Source: a virus
Reading direction: 5' to 3' (one strand)
Virus record (IMG/VR): IMGVR_UViG_3300017745_000028
Coordinates: 1-35,122 of that record
Length of the DNA stretch: 35,122 nucleotides
The notes beneath the pieces are model-generated. The model had not been told where the DNA came from. It made no database searches and worked only from the letters and a program-made list of their open reading frames with translations. Positions within the stretch are counted from its first letter, which is position 1; each line of letters opens with the position of its first letter. A program made the translations under genes and the position numbers. Below, piece after piece: positions 8,912-35,122 of the stretch.

Positions 8912-11900
8912 ATGGGATACATAGGAAATGTTACACAGAGCTTTAATGTAAGCTCAGCTATGATCGAAGATCAGGCAATAATTCCTGATAAGATAGCAAA
9001 CTCTGGTGATTTTGCATTTCCAGCTGATATAAGATTGAAGGATGCAGATGCTTCTAATTATGTAGGTTTCCAAGCTCCTTCTACGGTAGGAACAAACATA
9101 GTATGGACATTGCCTTCTGCAGATGCAGGTGCTTCAGGTTATGCGTTAGTATCTAATGCGTCTGGTGTTCTATCTTGGGCAGCAATGTCAGGTGGTGGCC
9201 TAAGTTCCGATGCACAAAAGAACACAGTAGGTGGTACCAATGCAGGTGATTCATTTGATGGAACGAATGCAATAGAAAATACTCTCTTTGGCTATGATGC
9301 TGGAACAGCTATAACAACCGGAGATTATGTAACTGCTGTAGGATACAGAGCTGGCAAAAGTATAACTACAGGTGGTTATGCCACTCTACTTGGAAGAGAT
9401 GCTGGTAAAGCTATTACTACAGGACTCTCAAACGTAGCTGTAGGAATGGGAGCTCTTGAAGCTTGCACTACTGGTGGTAATAATATAGCCATAGGTAGTG
9501 CAGCAGTCCGTACAATAACAACTGCTAATGACAACATTGGAATTGGATATTCAGCATTACAAAACACAACATCAGGATATCAAAATATAGCAATAGGAAA
9601 CAATGCTTGTTGGTCGGGTTCTTTAACTGGAAATCGTAATGTAGTAGTCGGATATTATGCTGCTACAAAAATTACTTCGGGAAGTTATAATTTAATCGCC
9701 GGAGCTCAGGCTGGATCAGAGATTACAACTGGTAATTACAACACAGTTGTAGGCTATCAAGCTGGTAATGCTATTACAACAGCAAGTAACAATTCCTTTT
9801 TTGGTTACCTGTGTGGAGATGCAGTAACAACTAGCGGGTATAACGTCGCAATGGGTAATGAGGCTCTATCAGGATTAACTACCGGATCTTCACATACAGC
9901 TATTGGAAGAGGAGCTAGTAAGACTGTCTCGACAGGTAATTATTCAACAGCTGTAGGAAATAATGCTTTACTTAATGCCACTGCTGGTTTCAATAGTGCT
10001 TTTGGAACTAGTGCTTTACAGACTTGTACCACTGGTGAAATAAATACCGCTATAGGTCAAAGTTCGCTTGATTCACTGTCAACTGGAGTTAGAAACGTTG
10101 CAGTAGGTTATCAAGCTGGTAGTGATTTAACAACTGGATCAAGAAATACTTTTCTTGGAGAATATGCTGGTACAACAGGACAATCAGGCAGTAGAAATAT
10201 ATGTATAGGAAATAATGCAGCCCCAAGTTCATCCGGTGTTTCTAACGAAGTAACCATAGGTGACACTAATATCACTAAGTTCAGAGTTCCAGGTCTTAAC
10301 TTTGTAGTTAAAGATTCTACAGCTACTGATAACTATGTTTTAACAGTAGATGCCAATGGAGAGTGTGGATGGGAAGCAGCAGCTGGTGGTGGTGTAAGTT
10401 CTGATTCTCAAGAAAACACAGTAGGTGGTACTAATGCTGGAAATGCAATAGCCAGTGGTGGTGTATCAAACACTTTCTTCGGTGCTTCTGCTGGGAGAAA
10501 TACTAGTACTGGCGATAGAAACACAGCTATAGGTAGGTACACTCTTTATAATGCCACTACTGCTACTGACAATACGGCTGTTGGTTATAATTCTCTTTAC
10601 GCAGCAACAGGTGATAAGAATACTGCAGTCGGATCTTACGCTGGAAGAAATATTACATCAGGTACAGGCAATACAGTTATGGGATTTCAAGCTGCAGATC
10701 AACTTACAACAGGTAATAGCAATACCGTAGTGGGTCACGAAGCATTAGAGAACTGTACAACTGGTGCTTACAATACTGTTGTTGGTTTGTCTGCAGGTCA
10801 GTCAATAACTACTGGTGGTCAAAACACACTTATGGGACTGTACACAGGAGATGCAATAACAACCGCACAAGAAAACACACTTATGGGTGCTCATGCTGGT
10901 GGAAGCCTGACAAATGGTAGTTATAACACAGTGGTAGGTAAGAGTGCATTACAGAACAGCAATTCTGGTGCTTACAACACAGCAATAGGTAATCAGGCCA
11001 TGTGGTATGGTTCAGCTACAGGCAATCATAATGTAGCTATTGGTAACGCTGCAGGTGCTTATATCACTTCTGGAACAAGAAACGTAGCTGTAGGTAATTA
11101 TGCTTTAGATTCAAACACATCTGCAAGTGATAATACTGCTGTTGGTTATGAAGCTTTACCAGCAAACACAACAGGTAGCAATATAACTGCTGTTGGTTCA
11201 CTTTGTTTGGCAAATGCTGCAACTGGTGGTGGTAATGGTAATACTACTGCTGTAGGTTGCAACGCTGGAAGATATGCTACTGGTGCAAATAATTCTACTT
11301 TAATAGGGTATCAAGCTGGTCATAGAATTACTGGTGGTGATGACTATACATTTGTTGGATACCAGGCTGGTGGTTCACTAGCTGGTTCTGACACTACAGG
11401 ACAAAGTAATAATGGGTTTGGGAATACTGCTTTAGGTAGGCTTACTTCGGGAACACATAACGTAGCCCTTGGTAAAGCTTCAATGACCAACCTTACTACA
11501 AGTAGTAGTAACGTAGCTGCTGGTAACTATTCAATGCAAAATACTACAACTGGAGGAAGCAACGTAGCTATTGGTTACGGAGCTATGCTTTCCAGCACAA
11601 CTGGACATAACTCTGTAGCTGTTGGATTTGAGGCTTTAGAAGATATGACAACTGCAGCTGACAACACTGCTGTTGGTCATTCATCAGGGAAGAATATAAC
11701 AACAGGTTATAAAAATACTGCAGTTGGTCAAAATTCATTAGTATCAGCAACAACACATTATCAAAATACAGCCATTGGTTATGATACACTTCATGATTGC
11801 ACAGGAAATAATAATACTGCTGTTGGATTTCAGGCTGGTCAAAATATAACAAGTGGATCTAATAATGTCACTATTGGATGGCAATCTGGTACTTCTCTCA

Positions 11901-12418
11901 CTACTGGTAGCAGAAGTTGCATAATTGGTTATCTAGTTAATGCCTCAGGTGCTACTATTGGTGATGAATTAGTTGTACATGCTGGTAATGCTACAGTTAC
12001 TGCTTTTGGTAACGGTACAGCTTTTCTTGGAGCACATAGTGCTGGAGGTGGTGCTGGGGCTGTTTACAGAAGTCAAAATAGTTCTTCCTGGAACACTACA
12101 TCTGATGAAAGAATTAAAAAAGATATTACTGATAATACAGATGGATTATCAATTATTAACCAAATAAAAGTTAGAAACTTTAAATATAGGACTGAAGATG
12201 AAATTACAGTAGATTCATTAAAACCTTATTCAAGAATAGACTGTGGAACTGGAAATCATATTGGTGTGATTGCTCAAGAATTAGAGACAGTTGCTTCACA
12301 ATGCGTATCAGATGAGACTACAGGACTTAAATCAGTTGATACTGATGAATTATTCTGGATTATGTTGAATGCAGTTAAAGAATTATCAGCAAAAGTCACA
12401 GCCCTCGAAGCAGCTTGA
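8912..12418 (+). CDS. YadA-head-repeat tail fibre with C-terminal S74 chaperone (fibre A)
   Basis: The 1168-residue N-terminus (MGYIGNVTQSFNVSSAMIEDQAI) leads into an adaptor domain ending near residue 90. Two blocks of 14-16-residue YadA-head-like repeats follow (NTAVGYEAL, NTVVGYQAG, ITTG), giving a left-handed trimeric beta-roll. A hinge separates the blocks (TIGDTNITKFRVPGLNF, then LTVDANGECGWEAAAGG, residues ~445-495). The C-terminus is an S74 intramolecular chaperone of the endosialidase type: the predicted self-cleavage is S1064/D1065 in TSDERIKKDI, releasing ~104 residues that end in a coiled coil, KVTALEAA. Such chaperones trimerise the fibre and are then cut off. It is likely a receptor-binding tail fibre. 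Confidence 0.88.
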   Translation: MGYIGNVTQSFNVSSAMIEDQAIIPDKIANSGDFAFPADIRLKDADASNYVGFQAPSTVGTNIVWTLPSADAGASGYALVSNASGVLSWAAMSGGGLSSDAQKNTVGGTNAGDSFDGTNAIENTLFGYDAGTAITTGDYVTAVGYRAGKSITTGGYATLLGRDAGKAITTGLSNVAVGMGALEACTTGGNNIAIGSAAVRTITTANDNIGIGYSALQNTTSGYQNIAIGNNACWSGSLTGNRNVVVGYYAATKITSGSYNLIAGAQAGSEITTGNYNTVVGYQAGNAITTASNNSFFGYLCGDAVTTSGYNVAMGNEALSGLTTGSSHTAIGRGASKTVSTGNYSTAVGNNALLNATAGFNSAFGTSALQTCTTGEINTAIGQSSLDSLSTGVRNVAVGYQAGSDLTTGSRNTFLGEYAGTTGQSGSRNICIGNNAAPSSSGVSNEVTIGDTNITKFRVPGLNFVVKDSTATDNYVLTVDANGECGWEAAAGGGVSSDSQENTVGGTNAGNAIASGGVSNTFFGASAGRNTSTGDRNTAIGRYTLYNATTATDNTAVGYNSLYAATGDKNTAVGSYAGRNITSGTGNTVMGFQAADQLTTGNSNTVVGHEALENCTTGAYNTVVGLSAGQSITTGGQNTLMGLYTGDAITTAQENTLMGAHAGGSLTNGSYNTVVGKSALQNSNSGAYNTAIGNQAMWYGSATGNHNVAIGNAAGAYITSGTRNVAVGNYALDSNTSASDNTAVGYEALPANTTGSNITAVGSLCLANAATGGGNGNTTAVGCNAGRYATGANNSTLIGYQAGHRITGGDDYTFVGYQAGGSLAGSDTTGQSNNGFGNTALGRLTSGTHNVALGKASMTNLTTSSSNVAAGNYSMQNTTTGGSNVAIGYGAMLSSTTGHNSVAVGFEALEDMTTAADNTAVGHSSGKNITTGYKNTAVGQNSLVSATTHYQNTAIGYDTLHDCTGNNNTAVGFQAGQNITSGSNNVTIGWQSGTSLTTGSRSCIIGYLVNASGATIGDELVVHAGNATVTAFGNGTAFLGAHSAGGGAGAVYRSQNSSSWNTTSDERIKKDITDNTDGLSIINQIKVRNFKYRTEDEITVDSLKPYSRIDCGTGNHIGVIAQELETVASQCVSDETTGLKSVDTDELFWIMLNAVKELSAKVTALEAA
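9101..9182 (+). repeat. Adaptor-domain DNA shared with fibre B (copy 1)
   Basis: About 82 bp encoding VWTLPSADA..ASGYALVSNASG recur at 13149-13230 with only a few mismatches, clustered where Ala-Gly becomes Ala-Ala. Such identity between different genes indicates recent exchange or duplication. Confidence 0.8.
10238..10389 (+). repeat. 152-bp hinge module shared between fibres A and B (copy 1)
   Basis: This matches 14187-14338 over 152 bp with a single synonymous mismatch (GAT versus GAC in TVDANG). It encodes the hinge between consecutive YadA-like blocks. Confidence 0.9.
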
Positions 12419-12728: not shown

Positions 12729-15700
12729 TTGTCTTATATTGGCCAGAGACCAGTCGTAGGCAGATACATTAAACTTGATCAAATATCTAGTGGGTTTAAT
12801 GGATCTAGTACCAGCTTTAGCATGACAGCTGGCAGTCAAGCTGTCTCCCCTGGCACAGCAAGAAATTTATTACTTTCATTAGGCGGTGTAATACAAGAAC
12901 CAGATACGGACTACACTGTCCTAGGATCTACGCTAACCTTCACCACAGCTCCAACTGCTGGATCATCCTTCTTTGGAGTGGTCTTTGGTGATATGCAGTC
13001 TATTGCTACACCTAGTGATGGAACTGTTCTACCAGCGTCTATAGCTAGTTCTGGTGATTTTGCATTCCCAGCCGATGTAAGGTTAAAAGATTCTGATGGA
13101 TCACACTACGTAGGATTTCAAGCTGCCTCTACAGTAAGCAGTAACGTAGTATGGACATTGCCTTCTGCAGATGCGGCAGCTTCAGGTTATGCGTTAGTAT
13201 CTAATGCGTCTGGTGTTCTATCTTGGGCAGAGATGACCAGTGGCATAACAATACAGGAGGAGGGTAGTTCTTTATCTACAGCTGCAACTACTCTTAACTT
13301 TGTAGGGTCCAGTGTAACTGCAACAGGTTCTGGTGCTACAAAGACTATTACGGTTACTGGTGGTGGTGTTACATCTGATGCTCAGGAAAACACAGTAGCT
13401 GGTACAAATGCCGGATCTTCGTTCAGTGGTACGGATGCTCTAGATAATACTCTTTTTGGATATGATGCTGGTGCGGCAATAACAACTGGAGATAATAATA
13501 CTTTCTTTGGACACTCTGCGGGTAAAGCAGTAAATACTGCAGCGGGGAATACCTGCATCGGGTATGATGCTGGAAAATCTATGACTACTGCTGAGAAAAT
13601 GGTAGCTATAGGAACTTATGCTTTAGATTCTCAACAGACTGGATATGGAAATGTTGCTTTAGGGTATGCCGCTTTAAATGGTTCAACTACAGGTCAGAGA
13701 AATATAGCTATTGGCTATTACGCCATGGCTTATGGAAATCTCACTAGCAGTTCACTAGGAAATATAGCTATTGGTGAAGGTGCTCTAGTGAGTGCTAGGA
13801 CCGGCTCTCAATACAATATAGCTATAGGTTATGAAGCTGGATATAATGCAACGACTAATAATAATAACATACTGATTGGATCTAGTGTCGCTAGATATGC
13901 GAGTGGTACTTCTTTTAGTGGTGCTAGCAACGTAGTTATGGGTAATAGTGCCTTTTATTCAGCTACTAATGCTGAATTAAACGTTGCTATTGGCCAGTCT
14001 GCAATGAATTCAATCTCATCTGGAGATTTTAATGTCGTGGTGGGAGCTTCAGCCGGAAGAGATATTACAACCGGTAATAAAAATGTTCTTGTAGGTTATG
14101 AAGCTGGTAATACAGGTACAAACGATCTTACAACTGGGGCGAACAATATAATCATAGGTTATGAAGCTGCTGCTAGTTCAGCAACAGTTTCTAACGAAGT
14201 AACCATAGGTGACACTAATATCACTAAGTTCAGAGTTCCAGGTCTTAACTTTGTAGTTAAAGATTCTACAGCTACTGATAACTATGTTTTAACAGTAGAC
14301 GCCAATGGAGAGTGTGGATGGGAAGCAGCAGCTGGTGGCGTTAGTTCTGATGCTCAAGGCAACACCGTGGGTGGTACTAATGCTGGAGATAGCTTTAGTG
14401 GTACGGATGCTGTTAAAAATACTTTATTTGGATACAATGCTGGAACTGGCATTACCACAAAGGATAACAACACTGCTTTTGGATATGATGCTTTAACTGG
14501 TGATGGAGGTAATAATACTGCTTTTGGCTATGAAGCATTAAAAGTTAATGCTGGCAGTTCATTTTTAATGAATGTAGCAGTAGGAGGTCAGGCTTTAAAG
14601 GCTTTAACTACTGGAAATCAGAATGTGGCTGTTGGACAAAGTGCTGGAATAGCAGCAACAACAGGTAGCAGAAACACTTTAGTAGGTTTAAGTGCTGGTA
14701 CTGCACTAACAACTGGTGGTTATCATACTTTTATTGGCTGGAACTCAGGTTATAAACAGATAACTGGATATGCCAATACAGCCGTTGGATATTATTCTTT
14801 ATGGAACTCTACTGAATCAGAATATAACGTAGCGATAGGATATAGAGCAGCATTAGATATAACCACTGGAGACAATAATGTAGTAATTGGAACTGATGCT
14901 GGTAATACAGGAACAAACGATCTTACAACTGGTTCTAATAATATTCTTATAGGACACGATGCTGCTGCAAGTTCGGCAACAGTAAGTAATGAAGTAACTA
15001 TTGGTGATACTAATATTACTAAGTTCAGAATCCCTGGTATTAACGTAGTCTTAAAAGATAATGGTGGTACTCCAACTGACGGACACGTACTAACAGTTGA
15101 CTCTAACGGAGAAGCTGGTTTTGCTATTTCGAGTTTAGCTAGTGATGCTTTCAACAATACTGTTGGTGGTACAGATGCACTTACAAATGCAAGTAGTGGT
15201 ACAGATGCTAATACAGCTTTTGGTAAACAAGCTTTAACAGCACTTAATGGAGGACAATATTCTGATGCTTTTGGTTATCAAGCTTTAAGGGTTGTTACTA
15301 CTGGAATTTACAACGCTAGTTTTGGTTGTTTTTCTGGATATAGTGTTTCAACAGGAAGTGATAATACTTTATTAGGATATTACTCTGGTAATAACATTAC
15401 TACAGGATCTAATAATATTGTTATTGGTAAGGCTACAACCGCTTCTTCAGCTACGGTTTCCAACGAAATTACTTTGGGTAATAGTAGTATCACGAAGTTC
15501 AGAATACCCGGTCTTAACTTCGATGTAGATTCGTCTGGAATAAATATTACAGCTGCTACTCCAGAAATTTCTTTTAAGGCTAATAGTGTTGCAGATGCAG
15601 GGCAAATAAAAGTATATGAATCAAGTGGTGGTGGAGCTATGGGATTCCTTACCAAAGATACTAGTGGTACTGAGACTGAGCGTTTCCGTGTTAACCCAGA

Positions 15701-16250
15701 TGGAAGATTTTTAGTAGGTACTTCTGTTGAAACTTTTGCAAGAGTTTGTTTTAAAGTTTCTGCTAATAATGAGCAACCATTTTCTATAAATGATTCTAGT
15801 AATACAAGTACTATGACATCTAGGATTGGATTTAGAACAGGTAATAATCAAGTTGGCACAATTAAATCTAGTAGTAGTGCAACACAATACAATACAAGTT
15901 CTGATTACAGATTAAAAGAAAATGCTGTTTCAATATCTGATGGCATTACAAGAATTAAAACTTTAAAACCTTATAAATTTAATTGGATTATTGATGAAAC
16001 AAATACACCTGTAGATGGATTTTTTGCACATGAGGTAAGTGGTGTTGTTCCAGAAGCAATAAGTGGTACGAAAGATAAAGTAGCAGATGCTGCGGATGTA
16101 GCTAGAGGTGATGCAAATGAAGTCGGTGATCCAGTTCATCAACAGATAGATCAAAGTAAACTTGTACCTTTACTTACTGCTGCATTGCAAGAAGCTATAA
16201 CAAAAATAGAAGTATTAGAAACAAAAGTTGCAACGCTAGAAGCAGCATGA
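12729..16250 (+). CDS. YadA-head-repeat tail fibre with C-terminal S74 chaperone (fibre B)
   Basis: A TTG start gives MSYIGQRPVVGRYIKLDQIS, preceded by a purine-rich taggaat; no nearby ATG starts the same domain. Residues 1-95 (GFNGSSTSFSMTAGSQAVSP...LLLSLGGVIQEPDTDYTV) resemble N-terminal virion-attachment domains of phage fibres. An adaptor shared with fibre A follows. Three blocks of YadA-head-like repeats come next, each closed by a TIGDTNITKFR(V/I)PG-type hinge; the last is TLGNSSITKFRIPGLNF. A non-repeat domain (~residues 940-1050) precedes the S74 chaperone, with predicted self-cleavage at S1058/D1059 in SSDYRLKEN. The released ~115 residues end KVATLEAA. It is one repeat block longer than fibre A and probably another receptor-binding fibre. 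Confidence 0.87.
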   Translation: MSYIGQRPVVGRYIKLDQISSGFNGSSTSFSMTAGSQAVSPGTARNLLLSLGGVIQEPDTDYTVLGSTLTFTTAPTAGSSFFGVVFGDMQSIATPSDGTVLPASIASSGDFAFPADVRLKDSDGSHYVGFQAASTVSSNVVWTLPSADAAASGYALVSNASGVLSWAEMTSGITIQEEGSSLSTAATTLNFVGSSVTATGSGATKTITVTGGGVTSDAQENTVAGTNAGSSFSGTDALDNTLFGYDAGAAITTGDNNTFFGHSAGKAVNTAAGNTCIGYDAGKSMTTAEKMVAIGTYALDSQQTGYGNVALGYAALNGSTTGQRNIAIGYYAMAYGNLTSSSLGNIAIGEGALVSARTGSQYNIAIGYEAGYNATTNNNNILIGSSVARYASGTSFSGASNVVMGNSAFYSATNAELNVAIGQSAMNSISSGDFNVVVGASAGRDITTGNKNVLVGYEAGNTGTNDLTTGANNIIIGYEAAASSATVSNEVTIGDTNITKFRVPGLNFVVKDSTATDNYVLTVDANGECGWEAAAGGVSSDAQGNTVGGTNAGDSFSGTDAVKNTLFGYNAGTGITTKDNNTAFGYDALTGDGGNNTAFGYEALKVNAGSSFLMNVAVGGQALKALTTGNQNVAVGQSAGIAATTGSRNTLVGLSAGTALTTGGYHTFIGWNSGYKQITGYANTAVGYYSLWNSTESEYNVAIGYRAALDITTGDNNVVIGTDAGNTGTNDLTTGSNNILIGHDAAASSATVSNEVTIGDTNITKFRIPGINVVLKDNGGTPTDGHVLTVDSNGEAGFAISSLASDAFNNTVGGTDALTNASSGTDANTAFGKQALTALNGGQYSDAFGYQALRVVTTGIYNASFGCFSGYSVSTGSDNTLLGYYSGNNITTGSNNIVIGKATTASSATVSNEITLGNSSITKFRIPGLNFDVDSSGINITAATPEISFKANSVADAGQIKVYESSGGGAMGFLTKDTSGTETERFRVNPDGRFLVGTSVETFARVCFKVSANNEQPFSINDSSNTSTMTSRIGFRTGNNQVGTIKSSSSATQYNTSSDYRLKENAVSISDGITRIKTLKPYKFNWIIDETNTPVDGFFAHEVSGVVPEAISGTKDKVADAADVARGDANEVGDPVHQQIDQSKLVPLLTAALQEAITKIEVLETKVATLEAA
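13149..13230 (+). repeat. Adaptor-domain DNA shared with fibre A (copy 2)
   Basis: This is the partner of 9101-9182. The flanking codons diverge quickly on both sides. Confidence 0.8.
14187..14338 (+). repeat. 152-bp hinge module shared between fibres A and B (copy 2)
   Basis: This is the partner of 10238-10389, with one mismatch in 152 bases. A diverged version of the same hinge recurs near 14992 in this gene, and its protein counterpart is also found in the third fibre near 34960 on the - strand. Confidence 0.9.
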
Positions 16251-25534: not shown

Positions 25535-28123
25535 CTAAGGGGAGTTTAAGATACTTCCGTATTGTTCTTTCCACTCTTCTTTATTTAACCCAACTTCAAT
25601 TATTGAAGGGTAGGTGAGATACTTTTGATCAGATGTTCTACACGCAATGTTCACTACTCTTACTCCACGACGTTCCTTCATCTTATAAACATTTAACCCT
25701 AACTGATGGACACATACGTCTATTAATAAGGTTTCAAACCTACTTCTACCTAAGATGTTGCTGTTAGAAGCTTTGGAGAACTCGCAGTAACTTGCATACA
25801 ACCATTTATCTGAAGCCATATAAACAATCGAAGAGCCAGCTGGAGCAGCCTTTGCCAGTCCTATAGACGCAGAAGCATTCTCATCAAATACTAAACAATG
25901 CTCCATCCAATCCATTATCTGATTAGATTTAAGTATCTGTTCTCTATTATGCTTCGCAAAGAAATCAACCTTCTTTGTAGTCTCCATCAAGTATTCCCTC
26001 ATCTCGTGTTCAGACATATCCAACACCCAGTTAACTAGACCAGACAACATGGAGGAGAAGTCCCCAAAGGGGCATCCTCGGTCGTCCATATCTATAAGGG
26101 TTCGTTGGTCTGCAGACTTGCCTAGGAAGGGCTTATCGAAGGGTATGGTGAGACGTCTACGAGCTAACCCAGAGGTAGGATCGGTAGTTTGAATAGGCTC
26201 GTTTGCCGTTATCATAACTAAACCGTTGAACTTAAAGGGTTTCTGTGATCCTGACTGAAATTTTCTTTCATGTCTTATTAAATCTCTACCTGTTATTGCC
26301 TTCAACACAGATACAGAACCACCATATCTCTCTACATCATTGAATAGTAATAGCTTTTTCTTATATAAGTTAGCGGTTTCAAAACGATTCTTCTCCAAAT
26401 GCTCTAATGAGGAGATCATTGCGTTGTCATCTCCTACCAGTGCATGAGCTAAATTAGCGTAAGTAGATTTACCTGACTTCCCTGGACCTACTATTTCAAC
26501 AAATTTCTGTACGTCTGAATGACTTAGGAGCACCGCTCGCAACCATGCTCTGAGCACTTGCACTCTGTCCCAGTTTCCATCTTGGACTTTTTTAAGCCAT
26601 TTGATGATGGGTTCACAGGTCGCTTCCGGTGAGTAGTTATATGGCAGTTGCTGGGTGAAGTGCATTCCTCTATCGAATGGGAGGAGTTCTTTGGTTTCGA
26701 TGCAGAGTATTCCATTTTTAAATAATAAGTGTCTGTTGTCTTCATACCATTCGTCAAATATCTCAGAGATTCTAAGTTGCTCTACTACATCATTGACGAG
26801 ATTCATACTATAACCACTAGGTAATAGATGATCTTTTACTAAATCTAACCTATGCTTCACTTCTCCTTTCATCTCTATATCAGACAAACCAGACCATAAG
26901 CCTTTACTTTTATACTCATATATAAAGAAACAGTTCTGTTGCTGGCTATACTTTAAATTACCTTTATAGGTCTGTAATAGTATTTGAGATATTACATCGG
27001 AGGAGGGATTCCTAGGTTTCTGGTCTCTTCCTCTTGGAGATAGGGGAGCTGCAGCCATCTCTAGTTTGGGCATCATAGTAGTAGCAGCTGTAAGTTTAAC
27101 TTTTTTCTTAGGTGTGTTTACTTTTCCTTGCATTTCTCTTAAACGTTTTTCGTCCTCTTCTAATTGTGCATCATCAACATTCATACTCTTATAGCTTTCT
27201 GAAGGCTTCCAACCATTCTCCTTGGCTATATGTATAAGTGAACCTATACCACGACCTCCTCCTTTACTGAAGGAGAACCATCTTTTCTGGCAATCACCTT
27301 TACGATACTTGTCAGATTGTTGTGACCATTTATCCCACTCATCTAATAGTGAGTCATCTAAAGAATGTAATGATTGACCAACCGTAATCCAGATATCGTA
27401 ATCATCAGTAGCCTCTGGAGGTAATGCCCACATAGCTTCTGTCGCTAACTGTATATCACGTTCTAAATTTATTCTGGCGTTCAGAGCAAATCCAGGACCA
27501 ACGATACGTGTATGTTGATTAGAAGGTACACCTTGTTTAGCATTCTTGTTTATGATTGCATTCATCAACCAATCAGGCATATCTGGCAGTTTATTCACAT
27601 ACTCAAACCCTTGATCTTTGGCTGTGTAATAACCTTGAGTATCAGGATGTAAGCCCATCAACACTCCCTGATGCTTACTCCATAAGATTTCTAGCTTTTC
27701 TTTAGGTGCTTCTGCATGCCAAGTGTACTTATTACGTATGAAATGTTTATGTTGTTCTCTTTTTAACTTATATAGTTTACGTTCTCTACCTTCCTTACCA
27801 CTACATATAGTAAGAGTATTAGGTAAAGCTTCAGCTATAGAGTCACCACACAACTCTTCTATGGCTTTATATACAGTAGGTCCATCAATATCCACCCAGA
27901 CTAAACCATAAGGATGATTGTAGACAGGACCACCTAGTAAACCTACGGCTTTACATTCTCCAGTTGTCAGCTCGTCTTCAATATCCCGTACACTGAATGG
28001 CTGGTTCTGCCATCCTTTGACATAAGGATCTTTATTTTTCCCTAAAGGGGTCAGTGGCCAATCAATGGGTATCCATGAGAGATTAAATTGACCTGGTTTG
28101 AGTTCTTTTTTACTTTCTGTCAT
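25535..28123 (-). CDS. Primase-helicase: PrimPol-like N-terminus with SF3/D5-type helicase
   Basis: The N-terminal part of this 862-residue protein contains LVWVDID (D78, D80), the metal-binding motif of PrimPol domains, followed by TLTICSGKEGRERKLYKL, where I do not find the usual S-x-H. Residues ~230-305 look like a primase C-terminal domain (WALPPEATDDYDIWITVGQS, then WFSFSKGGGRGIGSLIHIA). The helicase has Walker A GPGKSGKST (546-554), Walker B LLLFNDVE (591-598), a sensor ITANEP (638-643) and GLARRRLTIPF near 652-662. Such proteins prime and unwind at phage or plasmid origins. T4-like phages normally use separate gp41 and gp61, so this may be an extra replication or recombination-restart enzyme. 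It overlaps the upstream small gene by 3 nt. Confidence 0.85.
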   Translation of the reverse strand: MTESKKELKPGQFNLSWIPIDWPLTPLGKNKDPYVKGWQNQPFSVRDIEDELTTGECKAVGLLGGPVYNHPYGLVWVDIDGPTVYKAIEELCGDSIAEALPNTLTICSGKEGRERKLYKLKREQHKHFIRNKYTWHAEAPKEKLEILWSKHQGVLMGLHPDTQGYYTAKDQGFEYVNKLPDMPDWLMNAIINKNAKQGVPSNQHTRIVGPGFALNARINLERDIQLATEAMWALPPEATDDYDIWITVGQSLHSLDDSLLDEWDKWSQQSDKYRKGDCQKRWFSFSKGGGRGIGSLIHIAKENGWKPSESYKSMNVDDAQLEEDEKRLREMQGKVNTPKKKVKLTAATTMMPKLEMAAAPLSPRGRDQKPRNPSSDVISQILLQTYKGNLKYSQQQNCFFIYEYKSKGLWSGLSDIEMKGEVKHRLDLVKDHLLPSGYSMNLVNDVVEQLRISEIFDEWYEDNRHLLFKNGILCIETKELLPFDRGMHFTQQLPYNYSPEATCEPIIKWLKKVQDGNWDRVQVLRAWLRAVLLSHSDVQKFVEIVGPGKSGKSTYANLAHALVGDDNAMISSLEHLEKNRFETANLYKKKLLLFNDVERYGGSVSVLKAITGRDLIRHERKFQSGSQKPFKFNGLVMITANEPIQTTDPTSGLARRRLTIPFDKPFLGKSADQRTLIDMDDRGCPFGDFSSMLSGLVNWVLDMSEHEMREYLMETTKKVDFFAKHNREQILKSNQIMDWMEHCLVFDENASASIGLAKAAPAGSSIVYMASDKWLYASYCEFSKASNSNILGRSRFETLLIDVCVHQLGLNVYKMKERRGVRVVNIACRTSDQKYLTYPSIIEVGLNKEEWKEQYGSILNSP

Positions 28124-31998: not shown

Positions 31999-32236
31999 TT
32001 AATACTTGTAAGACTGTACTCTTTTTTATAGCCGCTACGTCTTTTAGCCCATTAGCATCAAACCAAGGAGCATTTTTCCAACTAAAACCTTTACCGAAAG
32101 TATTGTCAGGAGCAGATATATACCAATGACAAGCAGAATCAGGTACATCCACTGCACATTTCGACCAGTCATCATCCCACTGGGGAACCTGAACCCACAG
32201 TATTGAAACCAATAACATTACTAAAATACTTTTCAT
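31985..32236 (-). CDS. Small exported or membrane-anchored protein
   Basis: I choose the ATG at 32236 (MKSILVMLLVSILWVQVPQW, 83 residues) because it overlaps the upstream stop by four bases and starts a signal peptide. The frame from 32290 would add 18 residues before it. The rest (DWSKCAVDVPDSACHWYISA...FSWKNAPWFDANG) has two Cys ten residues apart and many Trp, consistent with a small periplasmic disulphide-stabilised protein. There is no lipobox. The function is unknown. Confidence 0.55.
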   Translation of the reverse strand: MKSILVMLLVSILWVQVPQWDDDWSKCAVDVPDSACHWYISAPDNTFGKGFSWKNAPWFDANGLKDVAAIKKSTVLQVLNETN

Positions 32237-32820
32237 CCTTTCCGCAGTGTAGCTTTTATCATCCAAGCAGATTTGAAAGCATTTCCACACAATTCAGCCA
32301 TATAGTTTTCTATATCTATTGCTTTTAATTTGTGTGCAGTTGCCTGTATCTTCTTCGTCATGATACCTAGATTCTCTAAGTTTTTATAATAAGTCATCAG
32401 CATCTCTTCTGGTGCATAGCTTTTCACATGATCAAACTTTTTGTTTGCATCCATTAAACCTTCATGACACATAGGTAATAAGTAGTCCATTGACCTAATG
32501 TATTCTCCTATGTCATCAAACTCTTCGAGATGTAATTCATATTGTTTCTTTAAAAATTTATGAACAGCCATGAAATTACTTGCTTCATAGTTAAGATGAA
32601 TCAAGTGAGATTGGATTTGTAATTCATGAATGTAAGCAGCAAGACCTATAAGCGTCTGAATAAAGGAACCTACGTCATCTTTAGAAGAAGCTTTCTTTTT
32701 AGTAGGTTGTTTTTTCGCTTCAGGTTGTTGCTGGTTCTCCTGTGGCAACGGAGATGGAACCTGATTCTGAGTGGGAGCTGGTGTAAACATTAGATTTCTT
32801 TTTTTCTTGTTCCTCTTCAT
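32233..32820 (-). CDS. Dps/ferritin-like protein with intact ferroxidase residues
   Basis: Residues ~50-190 of 195 form a four-helix ferritin-like domain. SHLIHLNYEASNFMAVHKFL, then YELHLEEFDDIGEYIRSM, matches the Dps core, with H75, H87, D102 and E106 at the same spacings (12, 15, 4) as E. coli H51, H63, D78 and E82. Dps proteins oxidise Fe(II) with peroxide and shield DNA. The N-terminal ~48 residues are Pro/Gln/Lys-rich and disordered-looking, which could bind DNA. The start is uncertain: M at 32820 or at 32790 both overlap the upstream gene. A phage Dps may protect DNA or store iron during infection. Confidence 0.75.
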   Translation of the reverse strand: MKRNKKKRNLMFTPAPTQNQVPSPLPQENQQQPEAKKQPTKKKASSKDDVGSFIQTLIGLAAYIHELQIQSHLIHLNYEASNFMAVHKFLKKQYELHLEEFDDIGEYIRSMDYLLPMCHEGLMDANKKFDHVKSYAPEEMLMTYYKNLENLGIMTKKIQATAHKLKAIDIENYMAELCGNAFKSAWMIKATLRKG

Positions 32821-33046
32821 ATAGTCTAACTGCTTCTAGTCTATCGAAGAATTGTTCACGAACTATGTAAGCTGCTTCTTCTTTAAACTCTTGCCATAAA
32901 CCTGAATAGAAACCATACATTGGATGATCTGGATTACTACGACCTGATACATGATACAGATGTCTGATGAATGCAGTTCTTTTATCTTGTTCAATTAGAT
33001 GTTCTCTAACTGCTGCTTTGTGTTGAATACGTTCTTGTTCTGTCAT
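32720..33046 (-). CDS. Conserved-looking helical protein, unknown
   Basis: Residues 1-88 of 108 look like a soluble helical domain (TEQERIQHKAAVREHLIEQD, NPDHPMYGFYSGLWQEFKEE, REQFFDRLEAVRLYEEEQEK). The final 20 residues are Ser/Thr/Gly-rich (SSHSESGSISVATGEPATT) and are the part that overlaps the Dps-like frame by about 100 nt. This type of protein occurs in T4-like cyanophages as a hypothetical. Function is unknown; it may be made together with the Dps-like protein. Confidence 0.65.
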   Translation of the reverse strand: MTEQERIQHKAAVREHLIEQDKRTAFIRHLYHVSGRSNPDHPMYGFYSGLWQEFKEEAAYIVREQFFDRLEAVRLYEEEQEKKKSNVYTSSHSESGSISVATGEPATT

Positions 33047-33112: not shown

Positions 33113-33337
33113 TTAATCATCATGATCATCCCATGGATCAGTTAAGTTTTTATTTGGAGGACCGAAAGCCATATAGACTCCATACACTGTTATGAAAAAC
33201 AGTAATGCCAATATGATAGCGACCAGTTGACCTTGTGGAGGTAAACCTGAGTAGTTACCGTGACCAATCAGTGGTTGCCTTTCCCATGTACCTGGAAGAG
33301 TGTACACGGATGGTGTTGAAATAAAGTAACTTAGCAT
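33113..33337 (-). CDS. psbN-like: PsbN-like photosystem II protein with N-terminal extension
   Basis: Of 74 residues, 38-58 are a transmembrane helix (LVAIILALLFFITVYGVYMA). Residues 58-74 (FGPPNKNLTDPWDDHDD) match the PsbN C-terminus, recalled as FGPPSKEL.DPFD.HED. PsbN is a one-helix thylakoid protein needed for photosystem II repair and assembly in plants and present in cyanobacteria. The ~37-residue N-terminal extension (TPSVYTLPGTWERQPLIGHG) is not part of host PsbN, which is about 43 residues. It is led by CTATAAAATAAA and separates the third fibre from the Dps block. If confirmed, it is an auxiliary photosynthesis gene that could help keep PSII running. Confidence 0.7.
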   Translation of the reverse strand: MLSYFISTPSVYTLPGTWERQPLIGHGNYSGLPPQGQLVAIILALLFFITVYGVYMAFGPPNKNLTDPWDDHDD

Positions 33338-33362: not shown

Positions 33363-35122
33363 CTAAGCAGCTTCTAGTGCTGCAACTCTTGTTTCTAATG
33401 CAATATTCTTTGCAGATAGTTCTTGTAGTGCTTTTACTAATACAGGAATCAAGTTACCTTGTTTCGCTTCTAGTTTATCTGGGTTATTATCCGTTACCAA
33501 ATCTAAATACTCTGAACCTGTTTGTGCTTCCTGAAGTTCTTGTGCAATAAATCCAGCCCTTACAGTACCATCATTTGTATCTGGCTCTCTTCTTTGCCAT
33601 TTAAATTTAACTGGTCTAAGAGTATTGATAAGATCTAGTCCAATCGGTAAGTCAATAACATCTGTTTTATCCCTTCCATCAGATAGAGAACTAATTGATG
33701 TTTGATTACAACGTAAACTTGTTATTTGTGAATTTCCAAGAGTTACTTCATTGGTAGCATTACTTGCACTAGGACGAGCTTCATATCCAAGAAGAGTACA
33801 ATTAACTCCATCAACAAGATTACTACTACCCCCAGTAGCACCAGTCCTATATCCTATGCAAGTATTATTATCTGTGTATGTTATATGTTTCCCTGCTCCC
33901 TCACCAATACTAGTGTTTCTGGAACCAGTAGTAAGTGCATTCAGTGCTTCATGACCAACAGCAGTAACACCTTGTGCAGTTGTCGACGTGTACATTGAAC
34001 CTTTACCTACAGCAACATTACTATGTCCAGTTGTGCTTGCCTGTAAAGCCTCGTATCCAATCGCAGTATTATTTGCTCCGCTAGTAATTTCTTTTGCAGC
34101 ATGATAACCCACAGCGGTTATGGCAACAGTGGAGTCTTGTGCAGCGAATTTACCTATTGCTATTGCACCGGTAGTAGTTGCAAGTGAATAACCAGTGGAT
34201 CTTCCTATACAAATATTATCATCTCCGCTTGTAATTCCGTATCCAGCCTGAGAACTCAAGGTAACGTTGTATTGAGCACCACCACCAGAGTTATGCATGG
34301 TGAATGTTCCAATAGCGATATTCATGGTGCCGCTATTGTAAGCTCCCGCATAGTAGCCTATACAGACAGATTGGTCTCCAGTGCTGCCTCCAGTACAAGA
34401 GTGATATCCAATTGCTACGTTATAGCTTCCTGTTGTATTTCCTCGTAACGCAAATTTACCAACACCAACGTTATAACCTCCTGTTGTGTTATTTCCACCT
34501 GCCAGTCTACCTAAAAATGTATTGTCTATACCAGTTGTTATAGAATCTCCAGCATCATGTCCAAAGCAGCTATTATCATCTCCACTTGTTATTGCTGTTC
34601 CAGCATCAAAACCGAATAAAGTATTTTGAATAGCATCGGTTCCTGTAAAAGAATCCCCTGCGTTGCTACCACCTACTGTGTTTTCCTGAGCATCAGAACT
34701 TACACCACCACCACCACTGGCTGCTGCCCATGTAGTACCGCCTGAACCATCTGACTGTAAGAATTGCCCACTAGAACCATATCCTGACGGTAAAACAAAA
34801 GTAAGATTACCAGAGAAATCAGCATGTGCAGGTGCTTTTATACTTGCATAATGAGCATTACTTGATTCGCAATACCATCTGACTTCTGAACGTGTCCCAC
34901 CATTTTTAAGAGTTATAATTCCATCAGTCAACTCAAAATTTATACCCGGAACTCTAAATTTAGTAATACTTGAATTACCAATAGTTACTTCATTTGATAC
35001 CGTTGCACTACTTCCTAATGCTTCGTGACCAATTACTATATTATTTGAACCTGTAGTTAAAGCACCACTACTAGCGTAACCAGCTTGATGTCCAACTAAA
35101 GTATTATCTATTCCTGTAGTGA
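33363..35122 (-). CDS. C-terminal part of a third YadA/S74 tail fibre (5' end outside window)
   Basis: The frame is open from 33363 to the window end, so at least 585 residues of a larger protein are present; a TTG at 34931 is internal, because the same hinge found in fibres A and B (TIGNSSITKFRVPGINF) precedes it in frame. It contains an adaptor-like segment (SGNLTFVLPSGYGSSGQFLQ), a long block of YadA-head-like repeats (NTAIGYEAL, NTSIGEGAG), and a C-terminal S74 chaperone. The chaperone has a predicted cleavage in SLSDGRDK at bases 33680/33681, releasing ~105 residues ending RVAALEAA. It is on the opposite strand from the other two fibres and separated from them by 17 kb. Confidence 0.87.
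   Translation of the reverse strand, partial: TTGIDNTLVGHQAGYASSGALTTGSNNIVIGHEALGSSATVSNEVTIGNSSITKFRVPGINFELTDGIITLKNGGTRSEVRWYCESSNAHYASIKAPAHADFSGNLTFVLPSGYGSSGQFLQSDGSGGTTWAAASGGGGVSSDAQENTVGGSNAGDSFTGTDAIQNTLFGFDAGTAITSGDDNSCFGHDAGDSITTGIDNTFLGRLAGGNNTTGGYNVGVGKFALRGNTTGSYNVAIGYHSCTGGSTGDQSVCIGYYAGAYNSGTMNIAIGTFTMHNSGGGAQYNVTLSSQAGYGITSGDDNICIGRSTGYSLATTTGAIAIGKFAAQDSTVAITAVGYHAAKEITSGANNTAIGYEALQASTTGHSNVAVGKGSMYTSTTAQGVTAVGHEALNALTTGSRNTSIGEGAGKHITYTDNNTCIGYRTGATGGSSNLVDGVNCTLLGYEARPSASNATNEVTLGNSQITSLRCNQTSISSLSDGRDKTDVIDLPIGLDLINTLRPVKFKWQRREPDTNDGTVRAGFIAQELQEAQTGSEYLDLVTDNNPDKLEAKQGNLIPVLVKALQELSAKNIALETRVAALEAA

Follow-up and report, generated by a model that had tools for sequence, protein, structure and literature searches.

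The window, i.e. the whole stretch of DNA analysed (35,122 nucleotides), comprises an entire 35-kb IMG/VR virus record, and the part of it that was compared with phage records had no close DNA match there. It carries a small open reading frame running from ATG to stop, which starts 25 nt past a co-directional fibre gene and translates to 74 aa (MLSYFISTPSVYTLPGTWERQPLIGHGNYSGLPPQGQLVAIILALLFFITVYGVYMAFGPPNKNLTDPWDDHDD, with FGPPNKNLTDPWDDHDD as its C-terminal end). The start codon and the N-terminal extension were kept in close relatives, which argues that the start of this ORF was not mis-called, and no promoter-like site was found upstream of the gene. The gene, its parts, and the neighbours referred to below are:

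33113..33337 (stop codon included), minus strand: the whole 74-aa gene, consisting of head, PsbN helix, and PsbN tail
33239..33337, minus strand: N-terminal head (residues 1-33), homologous to a Prochlorococcus microprotein and predicted to lie on the lumenal side
33284..33313, minus strand: core motif PSVYTLPGTW (residues 9-18), near-invariant in 42 fused proteins
33164..33238, minus strand: single transmembrane helix (residues 34-58) predicted by AF2, its C-terminal part inside the PF02468 match
33116..33163, minus strand: PsbN C-terminal tail (residues 59-74, GPPNKNLTDPWDDHDD), within the PF02468 match and of low pN/pS
33363..35120, minus strand: upstream fibre gene with an S74 chaperone domain (Peptidase_S74, 41.9 bits), running off the window end
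32720..33046, minus strand: downstream 108-aa ORF, also found after PsbN in close relatives (L007-L009, L014, L016)
25535..28123, minus strand: primase, sharing 61-62% identity with the S-EIV1 primase along 99% of its length, by which the phage is assigned to the S-EIV1 lineage

The C-terminal half of the protein is PsbN, as the initial annotation had proposed. PF02468 (PsbN) aligned with residues 39-74 (58 bits, E 8.6e-16, curated cutoff 25) and had no other match across the whole virus record, and NCBIfam PRK13183 (PsbN) scored 61.1 bits, which is under its cutoff of 70, covering residues 40-74 only. The hallmark of PsbN, one membrane helix followed by an L-x-D-P-[FW]-[DE]-[DE]-H tail, was present (here LTDPWDDH). 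Helix and tail are common to the window protein and the PsbN of cyanobacteria and chloroplasts (PF02468), but the hosts' version comes without the head: PsbN genes from 80 host contigs were mostly 43-56 aa long, a few longer lengths being an artefact of taking the first upstream ATG, and PGTW occurred in none of them. The extension is therefore real, although the ~37 residues initially assigned to it slightly overstated the excess, as host PsbN has several residues in that place and mostly falls short of the window protein by about 24-31 residues. With 74 aa and a head of ~33 residues, where a plain PsbN would have few lumenal residues, it is a PsbN-domain fusion and not a plain PsbN. AF2, run with 42 sequences, predicted one helix (residues 34-58, pLDDT mostly >85) and a head without stable fold (pLDDT 52-60). 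The last ten residues of the tail (LTDPWDDHDD) are identical in many Prochlorococcus PsbN, and Synechococcus and Cyanobium PsbN carry DPF in the tail. A Prochlorococcus origin of the tail is suggested by this ending but is not claimed here, as a tree would need more than 17 residues.

The phage belongs to the S-EIV1 lineage and is not T4-like. S-EIV1, a Synechococcus phage, has genes for primase, S-adenosylmethionine decarboxylase, and a glycosyltransferase in the same order as the window, where speD and a glycosyltransferase lie beside the primase. A homologous primase was present in 15 of 19 relative contigs tested (29-99% identity), and six T4-like cyanophages gave no primase match; the cyanophage setting initially assumed is borne out by the primase. 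In marine relatives, fibre genes homologous to the one upstream are followed by PsbN, with the primase near. S-EIV1 itself had no PF02468 match. An earlier report of psbN in this lineage was not found in the open-access literature, and a photosynthesis-gene survey of environmental genomes of the S-EIV1 group gives only hli and ptoX (PMC5332604). The 108-aa ORF had no match in Pfam or PHROG, and a Ferritin/Dps-like gene (PF00210, 39 bits; 32233-32820, minus strand) overlaps its end by ~100 bases with its own start; the S-EIV1 annotation, too, has a DNA-binding ferritin-like protein near the primase. Three long ORFs of the window (8912-12418, 12729-16250, and 33363-35120) are fibre-like and resemble each other, with recurring GxxAG-type repeats, and one of the three has a recognised S74 chaperone domain.

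P-x-[VI]-Y-x-L-P-G-T-W was found near the start of every fused phage PsbN examined. In the motif-based search this universality is in part built in, whereas the motif was no precondition in the search that used the window protein. P9, V, Y, L, P, G, T, and W were invariant across 42 fused proteins, and a few hydrophobic residues open the head in all members. Among 24 S-EIV1-like sequences, pN/pS was 0.016 in the PsbN tail and 0.021 over the 16 codons beginning with the motif, compared with 0.095 across the head region and 0.20 in the helix; as they average over pairs of relatives whose synonymous divergence is high, these numbers indicate constraint and should not be read as exact. Constraint acts on the two ends, on the motif about as much as on the tail, and the helix is freer. 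PHROG 8051, which PHROGs labels 'unknown function', matched residues 5-74 with the head included (E 7.4e-22), and PHROG 33944 matched residues 4-24 only, a limitation that gave the first hint of a two-part protein. A PDB relative of the head was not found by sequence, and weak matches were discarded.

Both PHROGs correspond to families of T4-like cyanophages. T4-GC163 (PHROG 8051) has the same two-part build in most T4-like isolates, i.e. a PxVYxLPGTW head, a helix, and a PsbN tail, but the isolates tested scored 24-34 bits to PF02468, compared with 58 for the window protein with its fuller FGPP tail, and the family is known from T4-like phages whereas the window gene lies in an S-EIV1-like phage. 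Some phage copies have a tail lengthened by EHAKMHELGIAHGH and a weak PsbN match (24-24.5 bits in two isolates tested). In P-SSM2 (L002:2995-3297) and its relatives the PsbN-like tail runs on into this conserved EHAKMHELGIAHGH, which many phage copies have, and three short T4-like contigs (L055, L072, and L164) hold two or three fused PsbN genes within a few kb. The head is not restricted to PsbN: small single-helix phage proteins that end in a Lys/Arg-rich stretch (T4-GC646, PHROG 33944) share it with the window protein but have a different helix of their own and no PsbN match.

Sullivan et al. (2010, PMC3037559) call T4-GC163 a possible PsbN, present in all phages isolated on Prochlorococcus and in no others. 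This exclusivity fails because S-SSM7, where GC163 is annotated (GenBank), and S-SSM4 and S-SSM6b, where the fused form was found (by tblastn in the latter), all list Synechococcus hosts. The accessible part of the open-access literature on psbN in cyanophages mentions neither the head nor a host relative of it; an ocean oxygen-minimum zone survey counts psbN, together with psbA/D, as one of the commonest photosynthesis genes of viruses (PMC8940887). The extension recurs in other cyanophages, where the initial annotation had suggested looking for it. That annotation had also named an occurrence of the motif in an unrelated phage family as something that would count against PsbN. To the letter, T4-like and S-EIV1-like phages are such a case, but both are cyanophages, so that gene exchange or shared function may account for the sharing and the PsbN identity stands.

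The GC163 annotated in P-RSM4 and S-SSM7 has a length of only 49 aa (MIIPHYNFDPNITFPIS...), the head being encoded at another place of each genome as GC646. The 49-aa PsbN starts exactly at the fusion joint, which lies between ...PGTWTKCNA and IIPHYNADPN..., and S-TIM4 and S-SSM6a look split too (tblastn). A separate GC646 was not seen in other isolates with the fused form. A strict rule of 'fused or split, never both' is broken by the metagenomic contig L194, which has a fused gene and a stand-alone head gene together. The split forms amount to two phage lineages and not to many independent events; in P-RSM4 and S-SSM7 they support, rather than prove, a joint function of both halves, and phages that encode the two parts separately hint at a single process in which both are used. 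In T4-like phages, the fused gene lies at varying places among replication and photosynthesis genes, and a plastoquinol terminal oxidase gene adjoins the head gene or the fused gene in P-RSM4 and S-SSM4. A conserved cassette with T4-GC331 and a T4-like 'DNA-binding protein' was considered and rejected, as the gene order was suggestive but the neighbours had no homology.

The extension, initially called unexplained, has relatives on the host side as well as on the stand-alone phage proteins. A search for the exact DNA motif had pointed to a phage-only head (one of 400 host-family genomes, and there on a phage-like contig), which was overturned by profile searches. A profile built solely from phage heads matched two chromosomal genes of the Prochlorococcus family, one at E 7.7e-9 and the other at 0.006, and once both host genes were added, matches were obtained in 95 of 400 family genomes. 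In the reverse direction, 1376 ORFs from the window and the phage loci were searched with a profile made solely of 40 host proteins, and the phage heads came out on top (window E 1.5e-7; best unrelated ORF 0.26). None of 1000 shuffles reached the observed alignment scores, which were 61 for the window protein against the 67-aa host type (shuffle maximum 42), 83 against the 64-aa host type (maximum 48), and 138 for the phage protein L421 against the 67-aa type (maximum 46). L421 and L373 have a PPVYTLPGTW head, yet their alignment to the host protein runs to the host end, and such full-length phage orthologues bridge the phage head and the host microprotein. One head position differs in a fixed manner, being W in the host and Y in nearly all phages. 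Three further phage contigs (L127, L356, and L357) hold a near-host-type full-length microprotein (PQVWTLSGTWSD) with a stand-alone head gene close by, and L127 has a plastoquinol terminal oxidase match as well.

The host gene encodes a chromosomal membrane protein of 64-67 aa (e.g. L345:4848-5051 and L346:5038-5232) with no relatives in Pfam, NCBIfam, or PDB sequences. Its head is homologous to that of the window protein, but it has its own helix and a basic end and no PsbN, where the window protein has the PsbN helix and an acidic tail. Judged by sequence, the window protein shares the head with this microprotein family and is not a full member of it, and the gene at 33113..33337 encodes a chimeric membrane protein whose helix and C-terminal tail are PsbN. 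The microprotein was single-copy and confined to genomes of up to 2.0 Mb, except for two of the 95 matches, one lying on a phage contig and the other being a weak match, interrupted by a stop codon, in a genome of 2.2 Mb. Phylum-wide, 13 of 292 genomes matched, and each of these already belonged to the family set. Eighteen named Prochlorococcus genomes carry the microprotein; it was absent from all 11 named Synechococcus and Cyanobium genomes and from six named Prochlorococcus whose PsbN ends in LDDP[FW]DEHDD, and four further named Prochlorococcus with assemblies of 1.0-1.1 Mb, which may be incomplete, gave no match. The two PsbN types probably mark the high-light/LLI clades versus the deeper low-light clades, a clade assignment that is itself presumptive. 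In one genome type, the microprotein gene comes after an FAD oxidoreductase (Pfam Amino_oxidase), which I take to be carotenoid-isomerase-like, and the surrounding genes do not place the microprotein in PSII.

Plant PsbN is described in PMC4823308 as a factor that serves PSII reaction-centre assembly and repair without being a subunit, with a stromal C-terminus and only a few residues expected in the lumen. By analogy, the tail of the phage protein would face the cytoplasmic side and the ~33-residue head the lumen. During infection, the PsbN tail may then aid the early steps of PSII reaction-centre assembly as well as its repair, and the head, as a flexible conserved peptide, might dock on a lumenal partner of the host microprotein and thereby keep PsbN activity at the site of D1 replacement. 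Homology to a host microprotein would fit the 'target or tether' role that the initial annotation offered for the extension. I regard this chimera, with its lumenal docking head, as evenly poised between right and wrong. It is supported by the alignment of helix and tail with PF02468, by the conservation of the head in fused copies and on separate phage proteins, by homology of head and host protein in both search directions, by the equal constraint on motif and tail, and by the split versions, as well as by the plastoquinol terminal oxidase neighbours and the role of PsbN in plants (PMC4823308). It is weakened by microprotein neighbours that are not linked to PSII, by L194 with both forms, and by the absence of a visible psbA in the window, which is a partial genome; moreover, a Synechocystis psbH psbN double mutant was no worse than the psbH mutant, and PsbN is perhaps dispensable in cyanobacteria (PMC4823308). 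The predicted unfolded head is as expected of a docking peptide but equally of any flexible end.

That fusions of this kind exist was known from T4-like cyanophages; new are the other phage lineage, by which psbN is extended beyond T4-like phages, and the tracing of the head to a Prochlorococcus microprotein. The two-part phage protein gives the host microprotein gene a first functional lead, and provides a testable link between viral infection and an assembly factor whose importance in cyanobacteria is debated. The microprotein may itself be a lumenal PSII assembly or repair component that acts with PsbN, the phages having joined the two, which I put forward as a tentative and somewhat improbable extension of the docking proposal.

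A rival case can be made for the head as a generic N-terminal signal for membrane insertion, orientation, or thylakoid sorting that has no specific partner and leaves all activity to the tail. A short head without stable predicted fold and with a few hydrophobic residues at its start would suit such a signal, but host PsbN inserts without a head, and a mere signal would neither hold PxVYxLPGTW nearly letter for letter (pN/pS 0.021) nor be common to a separate host protein, so I consider it unlikely. It is more doubtful still that the head is a competitor which mimics the microprotein and displaces it from its partner, with the PsbN part as an anchor near PSII: the fixed divergence between host W and phage Y and the presence of stand-alone heads and near-full-length orthologues in phages would agree with this, but the head is also found in phages listed with Synechococcus hosts, whose 11 named genomes (Cyanobium included) lack the microprotein, and the full-length phage orthologues look like working copies. 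A structural or lysis protein, e.g. a holin-like one, that merely resembles PsbN is very improbable, for although small single-helix phage proteins often have such roles and the gene comes after fibre genes in the S-EIV1 lineage, it scores 58 bits to PsbN, its almost invariant tail has the LTDPWDDHDD ending of Prochlorococcus PsbN, and T4-like phages place the gene among replication and photosynthesis genes.

As a minor observation on the host side, one Prochlorococcus-family bin (L350, G395:C3:48000-64000) includes, in addition to its own chromosomal PsbN and microprotein, a contig of 189 kb on which phage genes and a fused PsbN lie, and possibly represents an infected cell or a phage sorted into the bin.
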